Of a DNA stretch of 64,000 nt, positions 9,769-62,880 are shown piece after piece. How positions within the stretch are numbered: the first letter of the stretch is position 1; every line of letters begins with the position of its first letter. The stretch is taken from positions 186,001-250,000 of the forward strand of contig NZ_JRQQ01000005.1 of NCBI RefSeq assembly GCF_001625325.1, written 5' to 3'. The notes beneath the pieces are model-generated. The model was given only the letters and a program-made list of their open reading frames with translations. It was not told where the DNA came from and made no database searches. This stretch comes from Croceicoccus estronivorus. GTDB lineage: Bacteria; Pseudomonadota; Alphaproteobacteria; Sphingomonadales; Sphingomonadaceae. The position numbers and the translations under genes are program-made.

Positions 9769-10224
9769 TCAACGCCGCGCGTGAAAGAAATCCCGCAGCA
9801 ATTCCGCAGCCTCGGCCTCACCCATGCCTGAATAGACTTCCGGCCGGTGCAGGCACTGTTTCTGTTCGAATACCCGGGCCCCATGTTCCACAGCGCCGCC
9901 TTTTGCATCCGACGCCCCGTAATAGAGACGCGCGATCCGGGCATGGGCGATCGCCCCGGCACACATCGCGCACGGTTCCAGCGTGACCCAGAGCTCACAA
10001 CCGTCAAGCCGGTCATTTCCCAGAAGCTCGGCCGCACGGCGAATCGCCAGCATTTCGGCATGGGCCGTGGGATCGTGCAATGTGCGGGGCGCATTGTGAG
10101 CGCGGGCGATTACTTTCCCGTCCTTGACCACCACAGCCCCCACCGGCACTTCACCCATGTCCGCGGCAGTCCGCGCTTCCGCCAGAGCGTCGGTCATCGG
10201 TGCGGGAAGGGGCCAGCGAGTCAT
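9769..10224 (-). CDS. tadA: tRNA-specific adenosine deaminase
   Basis: 151 residues from the inner ATG at 10224. It deaminates A34 to inosine in tRNA-Arg(ACG). The cytidine-deaminase-type zinc site is complete: His55-Ala-Glu57 (TAHAEM), with Glu57 the proton shuttle, and Pro84-Cys85-Ala-Met-Cys88. The ARLYYG and FEQKQC segments are typical of TadA. It is convergent with the RNase T2 gene and divergent from rpmB. Confidence 0.92.
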
Positions 10225-42162: not shown

Positions 42163-42543
42163 ATGACTTCTGTTTCACGTGAAATCGAAAAAGCCCGGAA
42201 GGCATTTGCCACAACCGGCAGCCATCAGATACAGCGCCACATCTTCCTCTGTGCCGAAGCGCATAAGGGTGATTGCTGTGCCCATTCAGTTGGCGCACCA
42301 GCATGGAAATACCTCAAGAAGCGGCTGAAAGAGTTAAAGCTCGACCGAGAGGGCGGGGTGGCCCGAACCAAGGCGGATTGTCTCAGGATCTGCGCCGCCG
42401 GCCCTATAGCCGTCGTTTGGCCCGATGGTGTTTGGTACCACAGTTGCACGCCAGAGGTCCTCGAGCGGGTGATTCAGGAGCACCTGATTGGCAATAAGCC
42501 CGTAGAGGAATTTCGGCTTTATCCGGCAGAACCGAAAAGCTAG
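42163..42543 (+). CDS. (2Fe-2S) ferredoxin domain protein of thioredoxin-like fold
   Basis: 126 residues. Cysteines 30, 38/39, 73 and 77 ([22 protein letters not shown]) fit a thioredoxin-like 2Fe-2S ferredoxin. The ending [18 protein letters not shown] is typical. An alternative GTG at 42139 would add 8 residues. Codons 3-8 (VSRE segment) overlap a parS-like sequence. The partner enzyme is unknown. Confidence 0.8.
42171..42186. promoter_or_regulatory. parS-like site beside popZ
   Basis: TGTTTCACGTGAAATC, 14 of 16 matches to the parS consensus TGTTTCACGTGAAACA. It lies 58 bp after popZ, within the first codons of the ferredoxin-like gene, and ~9.2 kb left of the proposed oriC. Confidence 0.65.
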
Positions 42544-48910: not shown

Positions 48911-49761
48911 GCTGTCAGCCGCCTGCGCAACTCTGCATCGCCATCGCCACGCGGCGGGGCCGCGCCGAAGAACTTAGCAAACGCTTCCGCCGCCTGGCCA
49001 ATCAGCATTGCGAGTCCATCGATCGTCTGGAAACCCGCCTTTCGCGCGGCCTGCAGCAGCGGCGTATCGAGCGGATGAGTAACAATATCGTAGATCACGC
49101 TGCCCGGTGGCACGTGACTGAGATCAAAAACCAACGGCGGTTGTCCTGCCATCCCGAGCGGGCTGGCATTGACCACCAGATCGAAGCATCCCACGCGATC
49201 ATCAAAAGCAAAATCGGTCGGCTCCGCAAAATGATCGAGCGGGGCGACATGATGTTCTCCCCCCGGGTCAAGCTCGTCGAGCAAAGCCTTGGCCTTGTTC
49301 GGATTGCGGCCCGCGAGCACGATCATGACATGTTCGGCAGCCAATGCGGCAATGATTGCCCGCGCTGCGCCTCCGGTTCCCAGTACCCGCGCCATTCGAA
49401 ACAGGTGATCATGCGCCAACATCGGCCTCAGAGGTTCAAGAAATCCGCCTGCATCCGTATTATAGCCAATCAGTCGGCCCTGTTCCGGCACGATCGTGTT
49501 GACCGCACCGATCCGCGCGGCCAGCGGATCGAGCGCATCGAGTAGGGGAATTACCGCCTGCTTGTGCGGCATGGTGACATTACACCCGCGCCATGCGGTA
49601 TCGGCTCTGCGGCTCGCGATATAAGTTGCCAGATCATCTCCGGAGACAAGCGTGGCGCGATACTCCGCATCCAGTCCCAGCTCGCCAATCCAGTAACCGT
49701 GAATGGCCGGGGACTTCGACTGAGCAATGGGATCACCAATCACTTCCGCATATATGCTCAT
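48907..49761 (-). CDS. aroE: Shikimate dehydrogenase
   Basis: 284 residues. Shikimate-binding start (IGDPIAQSKSPAIHGYW), catalytic Lys in NVTMPHKQAV, NADPH loop LGTGGAARAI and AGRNPNKA. Aromatic amino acid pathway. Overlaps both neighbours by 4 nt. Confidence 0.94.
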   Translation of the reverse strand: MSIYAEVIGDPIAQSKSPAIHGYWIGELGLDAEYRATLVSGDDLATYIASRRADTAWRGCNVTMPHKQAVIPLLDALDPLAARIGAVNTIVPEQGRLIGYNTDAGGFLEPLRPMLAHDHLFRMARVLGTGGAARAIIAALAAEHVMIVLAGRNPNKAKALLDELDPGGEHHVAPLDHFAEPTDFAFDDRVGCFDLVVNASPLGMAGQPPLVFDLSHVPPGSVIYDIVTHPLDTPLLQAARKAGFQTIDGLAMLIGQAAEAFAKFFGAAPPRGDGDAELRRRLTA

Positions 49762-50342
49762 GCCGGTAATACTCCCTGTTCACGGAGTGCTCCAAGTACG
49801 GCAAGAAGCGGCATCCCGAGCACGGTGAACTGATCGCCCGTGATCGTTTCGAACAAGTGAGGGCCCAGAGCCTCAATCCGGAACACACCGACACACCCTG
49901 CGACTTCCGGCCACTCCTGCTCCAGATACCATGCAATGAAATCATCCGACAGTTCGCGGACTTTCAACGCAGACAGGTCGGAGTGCGACCACACGATGCG
50001 CCCATCCCGGGCAAGCGCTGCGGCACTGTGCAAATGCATGGTCCGGCCCGAAAAGGATCGCAAGTGCCGGGCCGCATCCTCTCGCCCGGCTGGTTTATCG
50101 AACCGCTGACCGTCCACCACCACGAGAGAATCACTCCCGAGAACCAGATCGCCGGGCATGTTCCGGGAAACGGCGACTGCCTTCGCCCTGGCGAGGGCAA
50201 GGGCGATATCGGATGGCGAGTGCCCGGCCAATTCCGTTTCCAATGCACGCTCATCCAAATCGGCAGGGACGGAGGTATATGGTATTCGCGCGGCATCCAA
50301 CATCGCGCGGCGGGAAAGACTTTTCGAAGCGAGTACGATCAT
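49758..50342 (-). CDS. maf: Maf nucleotide pyrophosphatase
   Basis: 194 residues. Family segments LASKSLSRRAMLDAARIPY, VLGSDSLVVVDGQRFDKP, and SGRTMHLHSA. It hydrolyses non-canonical or canonical NTPs. Between ppsR and aroE with 4-nt overlaps. Confidence 0.92.
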   Translation of the reverse strand: MIVLASKSLSRRAMLDAARIPYTSVPADLDERALETELAGHSPSDIALALARAKAVAVSRNMPGDLVLGSDSLVVVDGQRFDKPAGREDAARHLRSFSGRTMHLHSAAALARDGRIVWSHSDLSALKVRELSDDFIAWYLEQEWPEVAGCVGVFRIEALGPHLFETITGDQFTVLGMPLLAVLGALREQGVLPA

Positions 50343-51184
50343 ATTGGTTTGGGCCCTGGTTCCCGAGCAGCGGGATCCGCATCACGTTCATTATATAGCC
50401 GCAGGATTGCCGCTGCGGTCTCCTCGATGGAACGACGCGATACGTCAATCACCGGCCAGCCATTGTCGGCAAACATGCGGCGCGCGAATTTCAATTCTCT
50501 TTGGACAGCTTCCCGGTCGACATAATCCGTCTCGGTCGCTTCATTTAGTGTGAGCAAACGATTCCGCCGAATCTGGACAAGTCGTTCGGGTGCGGTGACC
50601 AGACCTACGATCAGTGGCCGGCGAAGACTGAACAACGCCGGAGGTGGGGGGCTTTCGAGCACAAGCGGAATGTTGGCAACCTTGTAACCGCGATTGGCAA
50701 GATAGATCGAAGTCGGAGTCTTGGACGTGCGGGACACACCCGCCAGAACGATATCGGCATCTTCCCAGTCTTCCCAGCCGATACCGTCATCATGCGCGAT
50801 GGTGTAATGGATGGCCCCCACACGCTCGAAATAGGCATCGTCCATCAGATGCTGGCGGCCGGGCCTGCCTTTCGCTTCCTGGCCAAGCTGGTCCTGCAAC
50901 GCAACGATAACGGCATCCAGCGCGGATACCGCAGGCAACCCAAGCACGCTGCACCGTTCGACCAGAAGATGACGAATCTCGGGATTGACGAGAGTAAAGA
51001 TCACCAGCCCGGGATGAGCGGCAATTTCACCCATGATCCGTTCCAGATGTTGCTGAGAACGCACCATCGGCCAGAAATGCCGCACGATATCCGCATCATC
51101 GAATTGGGCCAGGGCAGCCTTGGCCATCATTTCGAGAGTTTCGCCGGTTGAGTCCGACAGGAGGTGAAGGTGCAGCCGTTTCAT
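50339..51184 (-). CDS. ppsR: PEP synthase/PPDK regulatory protein (DUF299 kinase-phosphorylase)
   Basis: 281 residues from the ATG at 51184, preceded by GGGAG. Key segments: HLLSDSTGETLEMMAKAAL, DIVLAGVSRTSKTPTSIYLANRGYKVANIPLV (P-loop-like). It regulates PEP synthase or pyruvate phosphate dikinase by ADP-dependent phosphorylation. First gene of the leftward series leaving the proposed oriC. Confidence 0.9.
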   Translation of the reverse strand: MKRLHLHLLSDSTGETLEMMAKAALAQFDDADIVRHFWPMVRSQQHLERIMGEIAAHPGLVIFTLVNPEIRHLLVERCSVLGLPAVSALDAVIVALQDQLGQEAKGRPGRQHLMDDAYFERVGAIHYTIAHDDGIGWEDWEDADIVLAGVSRTSKTPTSIYLANRGYKVANIPLVLESPPPPALFSLRRPLIVGLVTAPERLVQIRRNRLLTLNEATETDYVDREAVQRELKFARRMFADNGWPVIDVSRRSIEETAAAILRLYNERDADPAAREPGPKPI

Positions 51185-51201
51185 GGATAGCTCCCGTGGC
51201 C

Positions 51202-51210
51202 TGTGGACAA
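51202..51210 (-). promoter_or_regulatory. DnaA-box-like 9-mer
   Basis: TGTGGACAA, complement TTGTCCACA, 8 of 9 to the DnaA consensus. Confidence 0.5.
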
Positions 51211-51313
51211 TCTCCTGCATAAATCACGGGATAGGATGGTGGACAAGTTCGGGAAGCGATTCCATGCCCGATTCCAATGTTTCGATCTGACACTTGTGGA
51301 CATGGGGATCAGG

Positions 51314-51322
51314 TTATCGACA
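51314..51322 (+). promoter_or_regulatory. DnaA-box-like 9-mer
   Basis: TTATCGACA, 8 of 9 to the DnaA consensus. Confidence 0.5.
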
Positions 51323-51334
51323 GGCTGGGGACAG

Positions 51335-51343
51335 TGTGGATAG
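51335..51343 (-). promoter_or_regulatory. DnaA-box-like 9-mer
   Basis: TGTGGATAG, complement CTATCCACA, 8 of 9 to the DnaA consensus. Confidence 0.6.
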
Positions 51344-51431
51344 CTTTTCATTGACCGGAGACGAGCAAGAGTCGCGGTGACGCACCCTCTGTTCAGCGTG
51401 GGAGAAATCGGGCAAGGCGCCGGTGTCCCCG

Positions 51432-51440
51432 CTATCCACA
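51432..51440 (+). promoter_or_regulatory. DnaA-box-like 9-mer next to the AT-rich stretch
   Basis: CTATCCACA, 8 of 9, about 20 bp before the AT-rich segment that would be the unwinding element. Confidence 0.6.
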
Positions 51441-51498
51441 GCACAACAGCTTCCAACATCCTTTTATAAATATACTTATTGTTGATTGGATTTTCGCG

Positions 51499-52524
51499 AT
51501 GCCCGGCCCCTTGCTCGACACCCTGCGGGGAAAAACCGTTTTTCCCCGGCCAGTATGGCTCATGCGCCAAGCAGGCCGATATTTGCCGGAATATCGCGCC
51601 CTGCGTGCCGAAAAGGGCGGTTTTCTTGAGCTGGTGTATGATTGCGAGGCAGCGGCGGAAATCACCATGCAGCCGATCCGGCGTTTCGGATTTGACGGCG
51701 CGATCCTGTTTTCCGACATCCTTATCGTACCCTATGCAATGGGGCAGGACTTGCGTTTCCTGGCGGGGGAGGGGCCGAAACTCTCTCCCACGCTCGTCGA
51801 CCATGGGCTGGAAAGCCTGACAAAGGTCCCTGAACGCCTGAATCCCATCTACGATACCGTTGCGCTGGTTAAGGCGCAGCTGGGCCCCGATACGACTTTG
51901 CTGGGGTTTGCGGGCAGCCCCTGGACTGTGGCAACATACATGGTCGCAGGAGAAGGCAGCCGCGATCAGCATGCTACGCGGGCGCTTGCCTATCGCGATC
52001 CGAAGGTCTTCCAATCGATCATTGACGCCATTGTGGATGTGACAGTGGAATATCTCTTTGGTCAGATCGAGGCCGGTGCGGAAGCGGTGCAGCTGTTCGA
52101 CAGCTGGGCTGGCAGTCTCGCTCCGGCAGAGTTCGAACGATGGGTGATTGCTCCGAATGCAGCCATCGTTTCCCGGTTGCACGCACGGCACCCTGGCGTT
52201 CCGGTAATCGGCTTTCCCAAGGGAGCAGGCGAAAAGCTGCCAGGCTATGCCAGGGAGACCGAGGTCGATGCGGTGGGAATCGATGAAACGATAGACCCGA
52301 AATGGGCTGGCGGTGCCCTTCCGAAAGGTTTGCCGGTGCAGGGAAATTTCGACCCGCTGTTACTGGAGGCCGGGAGCTCCATGCTGGAATCCCGGGCCGT
52401 CGCCTTGTTGGAGGCATTTTCCGACCGGCCTCATATCTTCAACCTCGGCCACGGAATCGGCCAGCATACGCCGATCGAACATGTCGAACGTCTGCTTGCT
52501 ACTGTTCGTGAGTGGAGGGGATGA
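51499..52524 (+). CDS. hemE: Uroporphyrinogen decarboxylase
   Basis: 341 residues. FPRPVWLMRQAGRYLPEYR with catalytic arginines, ILFSDILIVPYAMG with Asp, GFAGSPWTVATYMV, FDSWAGSL and FNLGHGI. Converts uroporphyrinogen III to coproporphyrinogen III. The gene next to the origin in many alphaproteobacteria. hemJ follows. Confidence 0.95.
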   Translation: MPGPLLDTLRGKTVFPRPVWLMRQAGRYLPEYRALRAEKGGFLELVYDCEAAAEITMQPIRRFGFDGAILFSDILIVPYAMGQDLRFLAGEGPKLSPTLVDHGLESLTKVPERLNPIYDTVALVKAQLGPDTTLLGFAGSPWTVATYMVAGEGSRDQHATRALAYRDPKVFQSIIDAIVDVTVEYLFGQIEAGAEAVQLFDSWAGSLAPAEFERWVIAPNAAIVSRLHARHPGVPVIGFPKGAGEKLPGYARETEVDAVGIDETIDPKWAGGALPKGLPVQGNFDPLLLEAGSSMLESRAVALLEAFSDRPHIFNLGHGIGQHTPIEHVERLLATVREWRG

Positions 52525-58525: not shown

Positions 58526-58541
58526 TGTTTCACGTGAAACA
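58526..58541. promoter_or_regulatory. parS site, perfect 16-bp palindrome
   Basis: TGTTTCACGTGAAACA, identical to the bacterial chromosome parS consensus, in the gap between mnmE and mnmG. About 7.1 kb from the proposed oriC. Confidence 0.93.
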
Positions 58542-60483: not shown

Positions 60484-61130
60484 TTCGTAATGAAGAAGAG
60501 GCGCGTTCATATACGGCAACGCATTGCGACTTCTCGGCTATGCAGCGGCTCGATAGGTTGGTGGCTTTGCTATCTGAGGAAAATGAGCGGCAAAACCTGA
60601 TCGCGCGACAAACGGTGCCGCATTTGTGGCAACGCCACATTGCAGACAGTGCGCAATTGCTGCGCTACGTTTCACGTGAAACAGGGGTGTGGCTCGACCT
60701 GGGAACAGGCGCCGGCTTTCCCGGTTTGGTGATCGCGGCAATGCGACCGAGTTGGCCGGTAAAGTTGGTAGAATCCAGGAAGCGACGCGCTGAGTGGCTT
60801 GAGTTCGCATGCGACGAACTGAATCTTCGTCACTGCGAGGTATTGGGACAACGGCTCGAAAATATCGATAGTTTTGCAGCTGGTGTAATTTCCGCTCGGG
60901 CCTTTGCACCTATGCCGCGCTTGATGGAGTTGTCTTCTCGCTTTTCCACAGCGCAAACACTTTGGCTGTTGCCGAAGGGACGGTCAGCCGAGCAAGATTT
61001 GAATGCCTTACCCAAGAGTCGCCGGAACGCGTTTCACGTGGAACAATCGTTGACCGATCCGGAGGCGGGCATCATCATTGGCGGTGGCCCAGTTGCGGGT
61101 ATCCGGCCGGAAGCGAGGCAGGCATCATGA
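60480..61130 (+). CDS. rsmG: 16S rRNA (guanine-N7) methyltransferase RsmG
   Basis: 216 residues. [25 protein letters not shown] loop [15 protein letters not shown], and [11 protein letters not shown]. Methylates G527 of 16S rRNA. The start and stop overlap mnmG and parA by 4 nt each. Two parS-like sites lie within it. Confidence 0.94.
60668..60683. promoter_or_regulatory. parS site in rsmG (15/16)
   Basis: CGTTTCACGTGAAACA; only the first base differs from consensus. Encodes V-S-R-E-T in frame. Confidence 0.85.
61030..61045. promoter_or_regulatory. parS-like site in rsmG (14/16)
   Basis: CGTTTCACGTGGAACA, about 80 bp before the parA start. Read in another frame as A-F-H-V-E-Q. Confidence 0.65.
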
Positions 61131-61903
61131 TACGAATTGCGATTGCCAACCAGAAAGGTGGAGTCGGAAAGACCACCACTGCTATCAATATTGCCACGGC
61201 CATGGCCGCGACAGGCTGGAAGACCTTGCTGATCGATCTGGATCCGCAAGGCAACGCCTCGACCGGGTTTGGGATTTATGCTGCGGACCGCATTCGTTCG
61301 AGTTACGATCTCCTGGTTGATCAGGCTCCTTTGGTTGAATGTATCCAACCAACTTCAATCCCGGGCCTCGACATTGTGCCTGCTACCGTCGATCTCAGTG
61401 GCGCTGAGGTGGAATTGGTTTCGGTGGAACAGCGTACGGCGAGATTACGAGCAGCGCTTGCCGATCACACCGCGCATGAGATCTGCTTTATTGACTGCCC
61501 ACCATCGCTCGGCCTGCTCACACTGAATGCTCTGACTACTGCAGATACTTTGCTGGTACCCCTACAATGCGAATTTTTCGCACTGGAGGGGTTGAGCCAG
61601 CTGTTGCAAACTGTCGAACGGGTGCAGCAACGCTTTAATCCTGACCTGGGTATTATCGGTGTGGTGCTGACAATGTTCGATCGTCGAAACCGACTGACCG
61701 ATCAGGTTGCCGATGATGTGCGAGATTGCCTCGGTGGCCTGGTGTTTGAATCGGTAATTCCCCGCAATGTCCGTCTGTCCGAGGCGCCAAGCCACGGGTT
61801 GCCCGCGCTTGTCTATGACCATGCCTGTGCGGGCAGCCGTGCCTATATGTCGCTGGCGCGGGAATTGATTGGCCGTCTGCCTGAAAAGAGGAAAGCCGCA
61901 TGA
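61127..61903 (+). CDS. parA: Chromosome partitioning ATPase ParA
   Basis: 258 residues. Deviant Walker A NQKGGVGKTTT at residues 8-18, DLDPQGNASTG, FIDCPPSLGLLTLNAL and LVPLQCEFFALEGLSQL. Its ATP-dependent DNA binding pulls ParB-parS complexes. The start overlaps rsmG and the stop overlaps parB by 4 nt. Confidence 0.96.
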   Translation: MIRIAIANQKGGVGKTTTAINIATAMAATGWKTLLIDLDPQGNASTGFGIYAADRIRSSYDLLVDQAPLVECIQPTSIPGLDIVPATVDLSGAEVELVSVEQRTARLRAALADHTAHEICFIDCPPSLGLLTLNALTTADTLLVPLQCEFFALEGLSQLLQTVERVQQRFNPDLGIIGVVLTMFDRRNRLTDQVADDVRDCLGGLVFESVIPRNVRLSEAPSHGLPALVYDHACAGSRAYMSLARELIGRLPEKRKAA

Positions 61904-62880
61904 GCGAAAAGAGCGCACCTACCCGAATGTCAAACGCCCCAAAGCCGGCGGCAAAGAGACTCGGACGGGGACTAGGTGCCTTGCTTGGTGAAATGCAGCG
62001 TGAAGAGCCGTTGGTTGCGGGGGACAATAGCGCAGCTGGGGAAAGCCAATCCGCACCTGTTTCGGCAACACCCGATCGAGGTTTGGCAATGCTGCCCGTG
62101 GCGGCAATTGAGCCTCATCCGGAGCAGCCGCGTCGTCATTTCGATGAGGATGCTCTGGTGGAATTGGCTGCGTCAATCGCGGCTCGCGGAGTGATTCAGC
62201 CCGTCATCGTTCGGCCCATGGGGGGAGGGCGATATCAGCTGGTTGCGGGTGAACGGCGTTGGCGAGCCGCGCAGCGGGCTCAACTCCATGAAATCCCTGC
62301 CCTTTTAAGGGATCTTGAAGAGCGTGATGTCCTGGCACTGGCGCTGATAGAAAATATTCAGCGCGAAGATCTGAATCCCATCGAAGAGGCCCGTGCGTAC
62401 CAACGTCTTGGTGAGCATGAGGGCCTATCGCAGGCTGAGATTGCTGAGCTGGTCGACAAGTCTCGCAGCCATGTATCCAATCTTCAACGCCTTCTCTCGC
62501 TTCCAGATTCGGTGATAGCCCATGTGGAAATGGGGCAGTTGTCGATGGGACATGCTCGGGCGCTGGTCGGTCGTGACGATGCGGAAAGCTTAGCTGAAGA
62601 AGCAATTGCCAAAAATCTGTCCGTTCGCGAAATGGAAAAGCGGACCCGGAAAGCTGCCGCCAAGATTGGTGGCGAAGGCCGAAGGCACGCGCGGGAGCCA
62701 CGTGATGCGACTGGCGATGCCGATATCATGGCGGTACAAAATCACCTTGAGGAATTTCTGGGTCTGCCAGTACGGATCAATTCTGATACGGACCCTCGAT
62801 CGGGCGCAGTAACAATCCGTTACCGCTCGTTGGATCAACTCGATCTCGTATGCCAGCGCTTAACTGGCGGGGGGATCTGA
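61900..62880 (+). CDS. parB: Chromosome partitioning protein ParB
   Basis: 326 residues. N-terminal ParA-stimulating segment (KRLGRGLGALLGE), CTP-binding region with VIQPVIVRP, GERRWRAAQ and ENIQREDLNPIEEARAY, the HTH around LSQAEIAELVDKSRSHVSNLQRLLSLP, and a C-terminal dimer domain. Its binding sites are the parS series upstream. Followed by a 105-bp convergent gap with no clear terminator. Confidence 0.96.
   Translation: MSEKSAPTRMSNAPKPAAKRLGRGLGALLGEMQREEPLVAGDNSAAGESQSAPVSATPDRGLAMLPVAAIEPHPEQPRRHFDEDALVELAASIAARGVIQPVIVRPMGGGRYQLVAGERRWRAAQRAQLHEIPALLRDLEERDVLALALIENIQREDLNPIEEARAYQRLGEHEGLSQAEIAELVDKSRSHVSNLQRLLSLPDSVIAHVEMGQLSMGHARALVGRDDAESLAEEAIAKNLSVREMEKRTRKAAAKIGGEGRRHAREPRDATGDADIMAVQNHLEEFLGLPVRINSDTDPRSGAVTIRYRSLDQLDLVCQRLTGGGI

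Follow-up and report, generated by a model that had tools for sequence, protein, structure and literature searches.

A probable hemE-type chromosomal replication origin between ppsR and hemE in Croceicoccus estronivorus

The chromosomal origin of Caulobacter crescentus, Cori, is located beside hemE, as an earlier sequence-only reading of the DNA analysed here had noted for Caulobacter and its relatives. According to the accessible part of PMC1914354, Cori resembles the locus described below in its boundary genes, in its length (404 bp in strain CB15) and in carrying DnaA boxes and an AT-rich stretch. The same part of that source lists seven elements for hemE-type origins, which need not all occur, and includes some predicted origins without CtrA sites (PMC1914354). 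Most Sphingomonadaceae in DoriC likewise have the origin beside hemE, with the gene cluster credited to Brassinga et al. (accessible part of PMC4741004), and origins beside hemE were predicted by Ori-Finder in Sphingopyxis and Novosphingobium (PMC4741004, PMC4059872, each as excerpted). The dnaA gene is not conserved near the origin in Sphingomonadales, for which parAB might serve as an anchor, as stated in the excerpted text of PMC8116508. The sequence-only reading held that few sphingomonad origins have been mapped. This agrees with the literature: the accessible portions of PMC4741004 and PMC4059872 give predictions, and our search, in which few subscription papers were covered, retrieved no sphingomonad whose origin had been mapped by experiment.

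We analysed a 64,000-nucleotide stretch of the Croceicoccus estronivorus genome (hereafter the window; contig NZ_JRQQ01000005.1, positions 186,001 to 250,000), in which divergent ppsR and hemE genes enclose an intergenic gap of 314 bp (51185-51498). On the sequence evidence, this gap is very probably the chromosomal oriC of the sphingomonad, of the alphaproteobacterial hemE/COG1806 (ppsR) type; we put the probability of this reading at about 95%. The same identification had been proposed from the letters of the sequence, and it now draws support from the DnaA-box cluster, GC skew, parS and parAB, and the conservation of the gap in relatives. As such, the gap would be an ordinary hemE-type oriC. 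It was to be expected from the predictions for relatives, because origins beside hemE had already been predicted in Sphingopyxis and Novosphingobium. Positions of the features are collected in Table 1.

Table 1. Features of the putative origin region of C. estronivorus (window coordinates)
Feature	Position	Strand	Basis
Putative oriC gap, flanked by ppsR and hemE in divergent orientation	51185..51498	no strand	ORF calls, box scan; conserved in 75/80 relatives (best 80 of 592)
ppsR (PEP synthase/PPDK regulator), left boundary	50339..51184	-	NF003742, 326.8 bits (cut-off 225)
hemE, right boundary	51499..52524	+	TIGR01464, 382 bits (cut-off 303)
DnaA box TTGTCCACA, 8/9, ppsR-proximal	51202..51210	-	box peak there (-320 to -281 from hemE) over 76 gaps
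Two GANTC sites, 51258 and 51270	51258..51274	no strand	motif scan
Weak DnaA box ATGTCCACA, 7/9	51295..51303	-	box scan
DnaA box TTATCGACA, 8/9, first of compact core	51314..51322	+	box scan
Degenerate box CTGTCCCCA, facing the 51314 box across 3 bp	51326..51334	-	convergent-pair scan
DnaA box CTATCCACA, 8/9, third of core	51335..51343	-	box scan
GANTC site, in region of relatives' commonest GANTC cluster (-160 to -121)	51369..51373	no strand	motif scan
DnaA box CTATCCACA, 8/9, beside AT-rich element	51432..51440	+	boxes peak there (-80 to -61 from hemE) in the 76 gaps
AT-rich element, proposed DNA-unwinding element	51451..51494	no strand	highest-AT 30-mers of window
parS-like, two mismatches, ppsR side; possibly chance	42171..42186	no strand	reversed control pattern also yields one place
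parS, exact TGTTTCACGTGAAACA	58526..58541	no strand	7.0 kb from hemE
parS-like, one mismatch	60668..60683	no strand	motif scan
parS-like, two mismatches	61030..61045	no strand	motif scan
parA-parB	61127..62880	+	profile matches; best ParB match of genome at window 62.1 kb

Against the equivalog model NF049928, the left boundary gene fell short of the cut-off; we take ppsR here to be COG1806/DUF299. A mechanical ATG at 51220 would stretch the ppsR reading frame into the gap. We infer that translation starts at the inner ATG (MKRLHLHLLSDSTGET), and with this start the gene-free gap of 314 bp given by the sequence-only reading stands. The G+C content of the gap is 52%, versus 60% in the window. 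Neither Rfam models nor a tRNA search produced a match in the window. Within the first codons of hemE lies a perfect 11-bp inverted repeat with a 1-nt loop (51526-51548); it was absent from the 25 relatives compared and was dropped for that reason.

The relatives used for comparison were the best 80 named loci of 592. In 75 of these 80, ppsR and hemE are divergent and 280-436 bp apart, with a median of 325 bp; these gaps and that of the window make up the 76 gaps referred to below. The part of the gap next to ppsR contains a block, CATAAATCACGGGA (51218-51231), which is not a DnaA box and is conserved as ATAAACCACGGGA in many relatives; the version ATAAACCAC is present in 29 of the 76 gaps.

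DnaA boxes were scanned as 9-mers against TTATCCACA by counting mismatches, so that one mismatch corresponds to 8/9. The gap of the window contains four one-mismatch boxes, at 51202 (-), 51314 (+), 51335 (-) and 51432 (+), the number given in the sequence-only reading. The weaker boxes mentioned in that reading are also present, except that three rather than two were found at two mismatches (51238, 51295 and 51303, all on the minus strand), while an exact TTATCCACA was not detected in the gap. The compact core at 51314-51343 reads TTATCGACA-GGC-TGGGGACAG from 51314 and continues directly with TGTGGATAG. The exact pattern of a same-orientation pair, YTATCCACA then TATCCACA at a distance of 0-25 bp, occurred at zero places genome-wide, the gap included.

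The whole window has seven one-mismatch boxes, four of them inside the gap. The background, taken from 343,531 bp of this genome with 23 such boxes plus the three in the window that lie outside the gap, predicts 0.020 boxes per 314 bp; the Poisson probability of at least four boxes in 314 bp is 7 × 10−9 for one given place in the genome, uncorrected for the number of places. Four boxes were never reached when the gap was shuffled 20,000 times by mononucleotides. A larger sample of the genome outside the window (1,413,373 bp) contained 106 one-mismatch boxes; within 314 bp, two of these occurred together six times and three never. By these measures, DnaA boxes are clustered in the gap above chance.

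The enrichment extends to the relatives. Their 75 gaps contain 165 one-mismatch boxes in 25,190 bp (6.55 per kb), compared with 62 in 432,977 bp of the 3-kb flanks (0.14 per kb), a 46-fold difference; each of five neighbouring gaps carries 0-3 boxes in total versus the 165 between ppsR and hemE. Six of the 76 gaps (L034, L046, L049, L050, L055 and L069) have zero one-mismatch boxes, and each of them has 2-6 two-mismatch boxes. The arrangement of orientations is shared over the 76 gaps: a minus box by ppsR, then plus followed by minus at about -240 to -161 from hemE, then plus at -80 to -61, with the AT-rich part at -60 to -21. Convergent box pairs with a 3-bp spacer (≤4/18 mismatches) were found in 42 of 76 gaps versus 0 of 75 control stretches inside hemE. 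Other convergent spacers of up to 11 bp were seen in at most 4 of 76 gaps, and a spacer of 12 bp in 24, where the partner would be the second opposed box. Tandem minus boxes spaced by 0, 2 and 3 bp occurred in 26, 25 and 31 of the 76 gaps, respectively.

The 30-mers of highest A+T content in the 64-kb window (25/30 A+T) all lie inside the gap, the last of them at 51465-51494. The AT-rich 30-bp segment noted beside hemE in the sequence-only reading is thus present, with the correction that its extreme is 17% G+C and not 20%. Mean A+T over the 76 gaps reaches 0.57-0.70 at -60 to -21 from hemE, compared with 0.38-0.48 in the remaining bins starting from -300. By composition, this stretch qualifies as the putative AT-rich unwinding element. 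A DnaA-trio is a run of TA(A/G) triplets 3' of a box beside the unwinding element. In 35 of 76 gaps, TCCACA is present within the 110 bp preceding hemE, and under a strict rule built on this definition the longest run in them was 0 triplets in 2 gaps, 1 in 31 and 2 in 2.

Scans for CtrA and IHF sites, like that for DnaA-trios, gave no convincing result. The CtrA consensus TTAA-N7-TTAA has no match in the gap of the window at ≤2 mismatches; over the 76 sphingomonad gaps there is one exact site (0.4 expected) and eight at ≤1 mismatch (3.2 expected). The degenerate IHF consensus of E. coli, WATCAANNNNTTR, gave no match in the gap at ≤1 mismatch.

GANTC, the recognition motif of CcrM-type methylases, showed a different pattern. 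The gap of the window has a modest count of three sites (51258, 51270 and 51369), none in the AT-rich element. Over the 76 gaps the total is 326 versus 93.8 in shuffles, every gap has at least one site, and the positions form three clusters, at about -260 to -200, at about -160 to -120 and, in the AT-rich element, at about -60 to -20. GATC showed no excess (99 versus 95.6 expected). A general intergenic GANTC excess of more than 1.5-fold is described for alphaproteobacteria in the accessible part of PMC3973325. A mere intergenic effect is countered here by the observed/expected ratio of GANTC, 3.27 in the ppsR-hemE gap versus 0.28-0.95 in five neighbouring gaps of the same loci, and by the lack of a GATC excess. 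The excess could nevertheless arise without any role in replication if hemE and ppsR had promoters of the GcrA/CcrM type. The genome encodes GcrA and three N6_N4 methylases, one of which (382 aa with a RAMA domain) looks like CcrM in its domain make-up. We found no report of a GANTC excess in sphingomonad origins in a literature search that covered few subscription papers.

The comparison was extended to the class by searching 144 genomes, in which hemE was matched in 122, 119 of these outside the family. Forty loci outside the family were selected manually, with most taken from among the stronger matches; 32 of them have divergent ppsR and hemE around a gap of 289-899 bp, and the other eight gave no ppsR match within 1.5 kb. 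At least one one-mismatch DnaA box is present in 27 of the 32 gaps, as a plain count without shuffle control. GANTC is in excess here as well, if more weakly (111 versus 57.9 over 32 gaps, with a site in 30 of 32), and the excess is therefore not confined to sphingomonads. Exact CtrA sites numbered three in the 32 gaps (0.35 expected); since they are rare at this level too, their scarcity is not peculiar to sphingomonads. Neither the GANTC excess nor the rarity of strict CtrA sites is thus clearly specific to sphingomonads.

These patterns invite the proposal that sphingomonad origins have a distinct type of control, with no CtrA consensus and with dense, conserved GANTC in three clusters that include the unwinding element, so that CcrM methylation and not CtrA blocking would gate opening by DnaA, like Dam/SeqA in E. 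coli. We consider this unlikely. Several GANTC motifs are present in Caulobacter Cori, where loss of ccrM left the control of initiation undisturbed according to section 15 of PMC3973325, as far as that source was accessible. Because the excess is class-wide, and because a Caulobacter origin carries GANTC and ccrM loss is harmless to initiation there, we treat a replication role of these sites as hypothetical.

Five of the 80 relatives depart from the common gene arrangement: in L071 the upstream part is cut off, L087, L090 and L104 have no ppsR, and L082 has hemE alone. The three loci without ppsR belong to Sphingomonas; no ppsR match was found in their 21 kb, in which hemE is at 10001, yet a gap of similar length is located between maf and hemE. 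Their gene order is otherwise unchanged, apart from a missing aroE match in L104. The maf-hemE gap contains two one-mismatch boxes in L090, three in L104 and none in L087, and L087 has no such box anywhere in its 21 kb. In L082, hemE, at 10001, is found outside the origin neighbourhood, with 0 of 14 other neighbouring genes detected, and hemE alone is therefore an unsafe landmark.

Partition sites point to the same region. At ≤2 mismatches the whole genome contains four parS-like places, all in the window, whereas the reversed control pattern gives one. All four places and parAB are within about 11 kb of the gap. Among the relatives, parS (≤1 mismatch) was found in 38 of 58 full-length loci and was absent from 20. 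Of these parS sites, 82 of 83 lie 3.3-10.8 kb away on the hemE side and one at -8.8 kb; the distances are lower bounds, because the loci end about there.

The assembly consists of 25 unordered contigs, and GC skew was assessed contig by contig. On C21, the contig of the window, the local cumulative skew, drawn over 124 kb (C21:166001-290000), has its lowest, though shallow, point (-1535) at window position 51100, which is 85 bp to the left of the gap. It falls almost as low at 49516 (-1496) and 52611 (-1474), so the switch is located only to within a few kb. Skew is negative in the 20-kb stretches sampled from 20 to 186 kb and, within the window, in the 4-kb bins that precede the gap; from 250 kb onwards the stretches are positive as far as the contig extends. 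The first stretch of the contig (C21:1-20000, L003) is reversed relative to the next ones (skew +0.030, G+C 0.66) and is a possible island. All twelve stretches sampled on C1, the one with dnaA included, have negative skew, and C11 shows a plus-to-minus switch of the terminus type. C3-C10 and C25 were sampled with one stretch each, and a switch on those contigs would therefore be missed. The sequence-only reading had named a cumulative-skew minimum far from the gap, for example at dnaA, as the outcome that would speak against it. Run per contig on this 25-contig draft, the check placed the local minimum at the gap to within a few kb and revealed no switch on the dnaA contig; C22 has another switch, considered below.

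Two relatives were examined for skew with 20 stretches each. In S. phyllosphaerae FA2 (one 3.8-Mb scaffold), a minus-to-plus switch is found near hemE (3.07 Mb) and a plus-to-minus switch roughly opposite, at 0.97-1.14 Mb; the stretches at 2.85 and 3.61 Mb depart from this pattern. Skew in Erythrobacter sp. NAP1 was weak and noisy, without a clear minimum at hemE.

The gap might instead be a mere divergent promoter region, its DnaA boxes being fortuitous or regulatory and replication starting elsewhere, for example at dnaA. We regard this as very improbable. The gap presumably must also house the promoters of hemE and ppsR, and DnaA can work as a transcription factor; in addition, two one-mismatch boxes are present just downstream of dnaA (C1:411408 and 411473; L018 11408 and 11473). 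However, the skew switches at the gap and not around dnaA, a parS cluster lies beside the gap, and the gap is retained in the three loci without ppsR, although L087 among them has no one-mismatch box. An origin close to dnaA itself (C1:410 kb) was rejected, as the twelve C1 stretches contain no skew switch and just two boxes accompany the gene.

Least probable of all is a true or second origin on C22. Its sampled stretches have negative skew as far as about 268 kb and then mostly positive skew, an origin-type switch near 269 kb (L234, L235; local cumulative minimum 268,902). However, the right part is not uniformly positive (-0.025 at 300-319 kb), and an inversion, integrated element or mis-join would produce the same pattern. 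This site is not favoured: the contig lacks parS, and across its 11 sampled stretches no two one-mismatch boxes lie within 314 bp. A scan of five C22 stretches found no tRNA. A 16S search of the assembly gave no match, which carries little weight, as the same search also missed controls such as Caulobacter.

If the ppsR-hemE gap is oriC, initiation may be pictured as follows. DnaA-ATP would nucleate on the core at 51314-51343, spread to the box at 51432 and melt the AT-rich element at 51451-51494, where the helicase would be loaded. Two forks would then depart in opposite directions, and ParB bound to parS would move the new origins apart. The GANTC sites may, hypothetically, mark newly replicated DNA through CcrM.

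One more draft genome gains a well-supported predicted origin. For sphingomonads, where dnaA is no guide, the hemE-ppsR gap can be considered a good but not infallible origin landmark (75 of 80 loci, the best of 592). For studies of how replication is timed when the origin has no obvious CtrA sites, the compact core of boxes and the excess of GANTC offer concrete targets. Three details stand out: this core, the clustering of GANTC, and the retention of the gap in loci that lack ppsR.

Set against described systems, the gap differs from Caulobacter Cori, for which the accessible text of PMC1914354 gives five CtrA sites and one for IHF, in that no consensus site for either protein was found in the gap of the window. 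Rickettsia hemE-COG1806 origins share the flanking genes (PMC1914354, as excerpted) and differ in that their genomes are AT-rich and CtrA sites were counted there. The predicted origin of Novosphingobium sp. PP1Y has three boxes near hemE, a gene also named for N. aromaticivorans, and is in addition close to a dnaA gene (accessible part of PMC4059872), whereas dnaA is on another contig in C. estronivorus. We otherwise saw no difference between the gap and the origins of TFA, PP1Y and N. aromaticivorans, all of which are predictions. The predicted origin of Sphingopyxis granuli TFA resembles the gap in its position beside hemE, its conserved gene order, its several DnaA boxes and its putative DUE, as described in the accessible part of PMC4741004.
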